In this document: positions 21,373-31,096 of the stretch, piece by piece
Numbering within the stretch: position 1 is the stretch's first letter
Layout: each line of letters starts with the position of its first letter
Position numbers and translations under genes: made by a program
The notes under the pieces: model-generated
Seen by the model: the letters and a program-made list of their open reading frames with translations, nothing else
The model's database searches: none
Told to the model about the DNA's origin: nothing
Source: Syntrophaceae bacterium
GTDB lineage: Bacteria > Desulfobacterota > BSN033 > UBA1163
DNA length: 63,877 nucleotides
Reading direction: 5' to 3'
NCBI GenBank assembly: GCA_013388635.1
Contig: JACAEX010000022.1
Location: 1-63,877, forward strand

Positions 21373-21416
21373 TCCCAACCCCCGTCTTCCAATAGCCTTC
21401 CCACGTTCATCCTGTT

Positions 21417-21445
21417 TTGACTTTTTATCCGGGATAAGATACATT
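21417..21445 (+). promoter_or_regulatory. Promoter upstream of the hisS structured leader
   Basis: TTGACT (21417-21422), 17 bp, TACATT (21440-21445). Transcription would begin near 21452, a few bases before the first arm of the long imperfect hairpin. Confidence 0.45.
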
Positions 21446-21457
21446 GCCTAGAAAATA

Positions 21458-21746
21458 ACCTCCAAAGACCTCCTCTCCCCTGGGAGACCGTGTCATAATG
21501 ACGATAGGGGGAAGAAGTGGGTCGGACAGGCAGTCAGGCTTCTCAGCGTTAGGATGCGGTCATTTAAGGTTATGGGTCATCGGCCTTTTTGAAAATGCGA
21601 TTCTTTTCATCGGCTTGCGACTCAGAAGCTGAGCGAATAAGAGGTTTCCGCCCTAAAGCTTCGTCACCTGACCGCCTGTCCCGTGTTGGAGCGGAACCAG
21701 TTTCTGCCTAATTACGACACAGCCCCTGATGGGAGAGGATGGAGGT
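21458..21746 (+). ncRNA. Rod-like structured RNA or leader upstream of hisS
   Basis: The 366 bp between glyS and hisS contain nested complementary blocks: ACCTCC (21458) with GGAGGT (21741); CCTCTCCC (21472) with GGGAGAGG (21731); GTGTCATAAT (21490) with ATTACGACAC (21711), one mismatch; a 15-nt block (21524-21538) with 21667-21681, one mismatch; and AGCGTTAGG (21545) with CCCTAAAGCT (21651). A local hairpin CTCAG-AAG-CTGAG sits at 21621. Together they make an interrupted rod of about 290 nt. The outermost helix would hide GGAGGT just before the hisS start, so a cis-acting control of hisS is plausible. A 6S-like RNA or a MITE are alternatives. I recognise no Rfam consensus. Confidence 0.5.
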
Positions 21747-21765
21747 GAGGGGGATCAAGGATCGT

Positions 21766-23028
21766 ATGACGGAGATCAAGGCGATTCGCGGTTTCAACGA
21801 TATTCTTCCGGGTGAGATTGGGAAGTGGCAGTTCGTTGAGAATACGGCCCGAGAGGTATTTGAGGGGTTTGGTTTCTCGGAGATCCGCATCCCCATTCTC
21901 GAACGGACAGAGCTTTTCGCTCGAGGCATCGGTGAAGCTACGGACATCGTTGAGAAGGAGATGTATACCTTTACCGACCGGAGCGGCAACTCTTTGACTC
22001 TTCGTCCCGAAGCCACAGCCTCGATGGCGCGGGCCTATCTGGAACATCAGCTCCACTCCTTTGATCCGGTGGCGAAGCTCTATTGCATCGGTCCGATGTT
22101 CCGTTATGAGAGACCCCAGAAGGGCCGCTACCGCCAGTTCTACCAGATCGATGCAGAGGTCTTCGGGGTGGATAACCCAATGGTGGATGCCGAGGTCATC
22201 CACATGCTCATCCATTTTCTCAGAAGGGTCGGGCTGGAAAGGCTTGAACTCCAGATCAATTCCCTGGGCTGCCGGGAATGTCGTCCCAGGTACCGGGAAG
22301 AACTGAAAGGATTCTTGACGAAGCGGTCGTTTCGACTCTGTGAAGATTGTCAGAGAAGGCTTGAGACCAATCCCCTTCGCATCCTCGACTGTAAGGTTGA
22401 GAGCTGTCAAGAGGCCATCGCCGGCGCTCCGAAAGTGACCGACTATATCTGCGAGCAGTGTCGTAAACATTTTGATAGAGTGAAGGAATACCTTGCCATG
22501 GCAGGTCTCTCATTCATCCTAAACCCCAGGATGGTGAGGGGTCTGGATTATTACACGAGGACTGCCTTTGAGGTGATCTCCTATCAGTTAGGCTCCCAGA
22601 ATGCGGTGACCGGTGGAGGCCGGTATGATAATCTCTTCCAGGAGATTGGGGGTCTCGATATTCCGGGAATTGGTTTCGCTGTCGGCATGGAGAGGCTGGT
22701 CTCCTTGTTGCCAGCGGGCAAAGGGTTTGTACAGAATCCTTCACTCTTCGTTGCTGCCTTAGGAGATGAGGCCCTTAAAGAGGCTTATCGGATCGTCAGT
22801 CAACTCCACCTTGAGGGGATTCGAGCGGAGTTGGACTACGAGGGGAAGAGCCTGAAAAGCCAGATGCGAAGGGCCGATAAGTTGAAGGCTCGTTACGTCC
22901 TGATCTTCGGAGAAGAGGAGTTTAAGCGGGGGAGAGCAGTGCTTCGAAATATGGAGACCAAGTCACAGGAAGAGATCCCTTTGCAGGGCGTTCTGAATAC
23001 TCTAAAGAAGAGAATCATCGGAGATTGA
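21766..23028 (+). CDS. hisS: Histidyl-tRNA synthetase
   Basis: The protein of about 420 residues starts in the usual way with EIKAIRGFNDILPGE. It carries class II motif 2 (YRYERPQKGRYRQFYQ-like), the histidine-specific LDYYTRTAFEV and GGGRYDNL motifs, and a C-terminal anticodon-binding domain (ALGDEALKEAYRIVSQL onward). I place the start at 21766 (MTEIKAIRG, AAGGAT upstream); the ATG at 21739 adds nine residues but lies inside the structured leader. Expression may be controlled by that leader. Confidence 0.95.
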   Translation: MTEIKAIRGFNDILPGEIGKWQFVENTAREVFEGFGFSEIRIPILERTELFARGIGEATDIVEKEMYTFTDRSGNSLTLRPEATASMARAYLEHQLHSFDPVAKLYCIGPMFRYERPQKGRYRQFYQIDAEVFGVDNPMVDAEVIHMLIHFLRRVGLERLELQINSLGCRECRPRYREELKGFLTKRSFRLCEDCQRRLETNPLRILDCKVESCQEAIAGAPKVTDYICEQCRKHFDRVKEYLAMAGLSFILNPRMVRGLDYYTRTAFEVISYQLGSQNAVTGGGRYDNLFQEIGGLDIPGIGFAVGMERLVSLLPAGKGFVQNPSLFVAALGDEALKEAYRIVSQLHLEGIRAELDYEGKSLKSQMRRADKLKARYVLIFGEEEFKRGRAVLRNMETKSQEEIPLQGVLNTLKKRIIGD

Positions 23029-23334: not shown

Positions 23335-23408
23335 TGGGGGATCGTTCAATGGTAGGACAACGGACTCTGACTCCGTGAATTGAGGTTCGAATCCTCATCC
23401 CCCAGCCA
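23335..23408 (+). tRNA. tRNA-Gln (anticodon CTG)
   Basis: The acceptor arms TGGGGGA (23335) and TCCCCCA (23398) pair perfectly and are followed by discriminator G and an encoded CCA. The anticodon stem ACGGA/TCCGT encloses the loop CTCTGAC with anticodon CTG. The T arm GAGG-TTCGAATC-CTC is normal. Its 3' part (23361-23408) is duplicated at 25266, marking it as an integration site. Glutaminyl-tRNA synthetase is encoded just beyond the inserted element. Confidence 0.95.
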
Positions 23409-31020: not shown

Positions 31021-31096
31021 GGTCCCATCGTCTAGTGGCCTAGGACATCGGCCTCTCACGTCGAAAACACGGGTTCGAATCCCGTTGGGACCACCA
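31021..31096 (+). tRNA. tRNA-Glu (anticodon CTC)
   Basis: GGTCCCA (31021) pairs with TGGGACC (31086), followed by A and an encoded CCA. The anticodon stem TCGGC/GTCGA encloses the loop CTCTCAC with anticodon CTC. The T arm is CGGGTTCGAATCCCG. No duplicated copy of its 3' end is seen nearby, so nothing is integrated here. Confidence 0.95.

Follow-up and report, generated by a model that had tools for sequence, protein, structure and literature searches.

The question raised by the hisS locus of a Syntrophaceae bacterium is what the long rod-like structure in front of this gene represents. In an earlier note on the window (the whole analysed stretch of 63,877 nt), this structure was read as a hisS control element that possibly responds to tRNA-His or histidine, with a 6S-like RNA or a MITE as alternatives. 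The nested complementary blocks on which the note was based are real: an arm search of the 21417-21766 region recovered nested inverted repeats upstream of hisS, both arm pairs were located, and they belong to one predicted rod. The rod consists of two repeated pieces, one within the other, and is not a single element. The features of the locus are, in order:

21417-21445, + strand: hisS promoter TTGACT-N17-TACATT, found by consensus scan, with a counterpart before hisS in 13/13 family members
21471-21483, + strand: target palindrome, arm on the left side, CCTCTCCCC, plus TGG (21481-21483), the duplication copy on this side
21471-21499 and 21711-21739: outer inverted-repeat arms, 29 nt, 76% complementary
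21484-21726, + strand: 243-bp MITE, delimited as a multi-copy element with common ends and 3-bp duplications
21484-21499, + strand: left terminal inverted repeat of the MITE, GAGACCGTGTCATAAT, with 1 mismatch to the consensus GAGACTGTGTCRTAAT
21524-21681, + strand: foldback core of the MITE
21524-21553 and 21652-21681: arms of the foldback core, 30 nt, 77% complementary
21711-21726, - strand: right terminal inverted repeat, GGGGCTGTGTCGTAAT as read on this strand, with 2 mismatches to GAGACTGTGTCRTAAT
21727-21753, + strand: right duplication copy TGA (21727-21729), right palindrome arm TGGGAGAGG and a third tract of purines, GGAGGTGAGGGGG, assigned from the BoxC/PIT-type motif consensus (PMC4666352)
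21757-21768, + strand: hisS start region, with AAGGA (21757-21761) as the likely ribosome site and ATG 21766 as the likely start codon, placed from the starts of homologues

The promoter noted ahead of the rod is supported by comparison with related genomes. In the 13 family members, TTGACT-N17-TAAATT is located 18-33 nt (in one case 99 nt) before the hisS start, whereas the corresponding TTGACT-N17-TACATT of the window is found 321 nt before it. The conserved promoter is thus displaced by about 300 bp, so that the palindrome and the MITE lie between promoter and gene. Transcription of hisS is predicted to start at ~21452. The 350 nt of 21417-21766 are predicted to fold into a single long rod of -120.8 kcal/mol (z = -1.85), and 3 of 100 shuffled versions fold as well as the native sequence. 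According to these predictions, the rod folds well and is, by energy alone, only modestly unusual for its composition.

The outermost helix of the rod is supplied by the target palindrome, as is the motif GGAGGT (21741-21746), which the earlier note had described as covered by this helix in front of the hisS start. Its pairing is borne out by the predicted leader, where the rod closes at 21746. The implied role of the motif is not: it belongs to the target palindrome, ends 19 nt before ATG 21766 and is probably not the hisS ribosome site. The most likely start codon, judged from homologues, is ATG 21766, while ATG 21739 is no more than the earliest ATG in the open frame. Both AAGGA, which probably serves as the ribosome site, and the start region lie outside the predicted rod; a small local hairpin between the start region and the beginning of the coding region is possible.

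The copy number of the element was determined with the region 21373-21790 as query. Besides the window itself, ten other places in the same genome were recovered at E < 1e-40 and 77-90% identity, together with several fragments; many copies was the outcome that the earlier note had named as speaking against a control element. Many more copies were found in genomes of the same family at ~70% identity, mainly with the core in common, and a core of ~158 bp is common to three genera at ~70% identity. The aligned copies terminate in GAGACTGTGTCRTAAT and its reverse complement, the consensus of the 16-bp terminal inverted repeats. With up to 2 mismatches, this end is present at 24 sites in the genome of the window (G000) versus 1 for the reversed control pattern; with up to 1 mismatch, it occurs at 36-78 sites in each of four relatives and the control at 0. 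The element of the window is short (243 bp, below the limit of about 500 bp for a MITE), has no transposase gene and only short chance ORFs inside, and combines terminal inverted repeats and dispersed copies with a target-site duplication that contains one mismatch in the window. Of the alternatives considered at the outset, the MITE is confirmed by common ends, dispersed copies and 3-bp target duplications.

The same GAGACTGTGTCRTAAT ends delimit further size classes of about 131-159, 230, 282 and 354 bp, some of which have unrelated cores. Several such classes with common ends and differing cores are present in G014, G015, G003 and G016 (L084-L102). Among these, the 131-159-bp class carries a TGTCACCCTGAACTTGTTTCAGGGTCTC-type palindrome, the 282-bp class corresponds to the 230-bp class with a 52-bp insert, and the 354-bp class apparently has another repeat nested within it.

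The insertion target has the layout of a BoxC/PIT-like palindrome, CCTCTCCCC-loop-GGGAGAGG...GGTGAGGGG. In the window, CCTCTCCCC-TGG is followed by the MITE and then by TGA-TGGGAGAGG, an imperfect duplication with one mismatch; three other copies (L217, L220, L223) are arranged alike, and there TGG/TGG is perfect. An exact 3-bp direct repeat is located directly outside the ends in 51 of 76 copies (1.2 expected), a repeat of 4 bp in four and of 5 bp in two of the 76. A comparison of the arms at fixed offset was weak (7.7 versus 7.2 for swapped arms and 5.2 for shuffled letters), and pairing at the insertion sites was judged instead by a hairpin search of the rejoined flanks. These flanks form hairpins around the duplicated bases, with a mean score of 7.6 versus 4.9 for shuffled arms, and pyrimidine/purine arms are found at 52 of 75 rejoined sites. 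The rejoined site of the window, CCTCTCCCC-TGG-TGGGAGAGGATGGAGGTGAGGGG, has the layout of the BoxC/PIT/TM motif without matching the strict letters of its consensus, CCCTCNCCCN3-6GGGNGAGGGN3GGGNGAGGG (PMC4666352). Uninterrupted strict BoxC/PIT palindromes (first two tracts) number 20 in the genome of the window.

Long elements in G150, a genome from the same phylum and another family, were characterised by their ends, length and flanks. All nine (L225-L233; 1.65-2.2 kb) have exact GAGACTGTGTCGTAAT ends. The palindrome whose loop they occupy is a different dispersed one, ATGCCGGA-TCAAG-TCCGGCAT, and CAA or TTG is duplicated. Because elements with the same ends use a different palindrome here, their sequences argue for palindrome targeting rather than for one fixed target sequence. 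Uninterrupted BoxC/PIT-type palindromes are also located just upstream of the hisS promoter in several relatives (L061, L062, L066, L067), and a MITE end with a palindrome arm is found upstream of this promoter in G007:C177 (L059). To judge from these relatives, the neighbourhood of hisS looks like a place where such elements land repeatedly.

A candidate for the type of transposase involved is provided by an insertion sequence of 1731 bp in the genome of the window (G000:C95:6898-8628, L083), which shares the ends of the MITE. Its ends match the consensus GAGACTGTGTCRTAAT at 15/16 and 14/16 positions, and it is flanked by ACTGG on both sides within a palindrome similar to that at hisS, CCCCTCCCC/GGGGAGAGG. 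The transposase gene is split by one in-frame stop; both halves match the IS1182-family transposase model, each alone below the whole-protein cut-off, and the gene matches Pfam DUF772 and DDE_Tnp_1_6. The core of the MITE was not found in this insertion sequence, the resemblance being confined to the terminal repeats. On sequence grounds, the element of the window is classed as a type II MITE, related to an IS1182-family insertion sequence by its ends alone. The copy in G000:C95, the only such insertion sequence with a readable transposase, may not be the actual parent, because of its in-frame stop and because it matches the MITE in the terminal repeats only. A search for an autonomous partner in 16 relatives (G001-G010, G017-G022) returned only a 195-bp fragment at a contig end in G006, with a terminal repeat within a similar palindrome.

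The copies, their ends, the target duplications, the palindrome, the IS1182-family insertion sequence that shares these ends and the displaced promoter are direct observations. The locus is very probably the product of nested insertions, in which a MITE, presumably mobilised in trans by a transposase of the IS1182 family, entered the loop of a BoxC/PIT-type palindrome and became a passenger of the hisS leader. In the order of events that we infer, a BoxC/PIT-type palindromic repeat would have been present between the hisS promoter and the start codon, and the 243-bp MITE would have inserted into its loop, duplicating 3 bp. The transposase would presumably recognise the common GAGACTGTGTCRTAAT ends. 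Since the MITE is a foldback element flanked by the arms of its target, DNA and transcript would then fold as one long nested rod. As a passenger in the 5' leader, the MITE is probably tolerated for two reasons: the rod does not include the AAGGA/ATG start region, and it is not followed by a terminator. Against this account count the imperfect TGG/TGA at the window copy, the in-frame stop and ends-only match of the insertion sequence, and the pairing of the core, which is kept across genera and not strictly needed by a pure passenger. A genome-collection search with hisS returned distant relatives only, 61% identical at best, with no empty site among them.

The pairing of the core was analysed in 19 copies from several genera, using 34 pairs of the core and the ends. 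These are 93.5% paired versus a shuffled mean of 90.4, and the covariation score of 0.145 (shuffled 0.095) was reached in 0 of 500 shuffles. Pairs changed on both sides number 7 versus 5.2 in shuffles, which is within the shuffled range (76/500). The foldback shape is kept across genera, in a form compatible alike with RNA function, a DNA foldback, shared descent and arm-to-arm correction. The paired changes were rejected as proof of an RNA, since shared descent and arm-to-arm correction could produce the same counts and the double changes are within shuffles.

Among the other explanations, co-option fares best. A MITE that is mobile by origin could now affect hisS expression, for example through RNase III cleavage, mRNA stability or translation. 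It lies in the 5' leader, its strong predicted fold stops just before the ribosome site, and cleavage by RNase III of transcripts with Correia elements offers a precedent (PMC10969869). However, the duplication has diverged and the rod is seen at hisS in the genome of the window alone, and co-option is regarded as unlikely. By analogy, an incidental or passive effect of the MITE on hisS expression, mRNA stability or translation is possible.

A dedicated role is a different matter, and we infer that there is none. A cis-regulatory RNA of hisS that senses uncharged tRNA-His or histidine, as a T-box-like element, attenuator or riboswitch, would suit the position of the rod downstream of the conserved promoter, its good fold and the pairing retained through some double changes. 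Against it, copies occur at multiple unrelated places, the rod is absent between promoter and start codon in all 13 family members compared, and the element has precise transposon ends and target duplications. In Rfam, neither the search with the window nor a permissive one with the element gave a meaningful match for the rod, T-box and 6S included, and a T-box or other known leader RNA was discarded for lack of a covariance-model match. A His-leader attenuator was likewise discarded, as the leader contains neither a His-rich leader peptide (ORF inspection) nor an intrinsic terminator on the + strand (terminator scan). The control element proposed earlier is accordingly not supported and must be considered highly improbable. 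Equally little weight can be given to a free-standing structured RNA made from each copy, 6S-like or of a new family: the ~158-bp core with its kept pairing would agree with it, but the Rfam result, the transposon ends with their duplications and the non-RNA explanations of the pairing oppose it. Elsewhere in the window, two tRNA genes are encoded (23335-23405 and 31021-31093; Rfam RF00005).

With nested insertion as the preferred reading, the MITE before hisS is mostly ordinary, and its preference for a BoxC/PIT-type palindrome is the noteworthy part. One tempting false riboswitch is struck from the list, and the locus illustrates how the nesting of one repeat in another can imitate a long regulatory RNA in the leader of a gene. 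Specialists may be interested in the repeated occurrence of MITEs and an IS1182-family insertion sequence within the loops of BoxC/PIT-type motifs, accompanied by duplications of 3 bp. BoxC/PIT triplex repeats have long been unexplained, and genome instability has been reported around them. Tentatively, they might be docking sites for an IS1182-type transposition system that recognises not sequence but folded DNA, such as a triplex loop or an extruded hairpin, and leaves a short duplication in the loop. If true, some of the reported instability would have a concrete cause in mobile elements.

Several known systems share parts of this arrangement. The BoxC/PIT/TM intrastrand-triplex motif, near which no mobility genes were reported in E. 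coli, has the layout CCCTCNCCC-loop-GGGNGAGGG-GGGNGAGGG of the target palindrome; in contrast, the MITE splits the copy in the window, whose right arm GGGAGAGGA misses the strict consensus, the likeness being one of sequence layout (PMC4666352). The type II MITEs Correia and QMITE2 are similarly short and non-coding, with terminal inverted repeats, target duplications, a foldback transcript and similarity to insertion sequences restricted to the ends, whereas the MITE of the window has other ends and another core and prefers BoxC/PIT-type palindromes (PMC10969869). Compared by the description available to us, the Chunjie MITE of the deltaproteobacterium Geobacter uraniireducens (~235 bp, dispersed, intergenic, with one copy inside an operon) is alike in size, dispersal and intergenic sites (PMC10969869). 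Specific insertion into repeated extragenic palindromes is also known from the REP-targeting IS1397, IS621 and ISPpu9, but the families listed for REP-targeting elements are IS3, IS110, IS4, IS256 and IS5, not IS1182, and REP sequences are different (PMC1525189). Alike in transposase type is IS1272 of the IS1182 family, which is reported to use stem-loop targets and to replace the target stem-loop without duplication (PMC5678879). It shares with the present case an IS1182-family transposase, here on an insertion sequence with the same ends as the MITE, and insertion into palindromes; unlike in IS1272, the target arms are kept here and usually 3 bp are duplicated.
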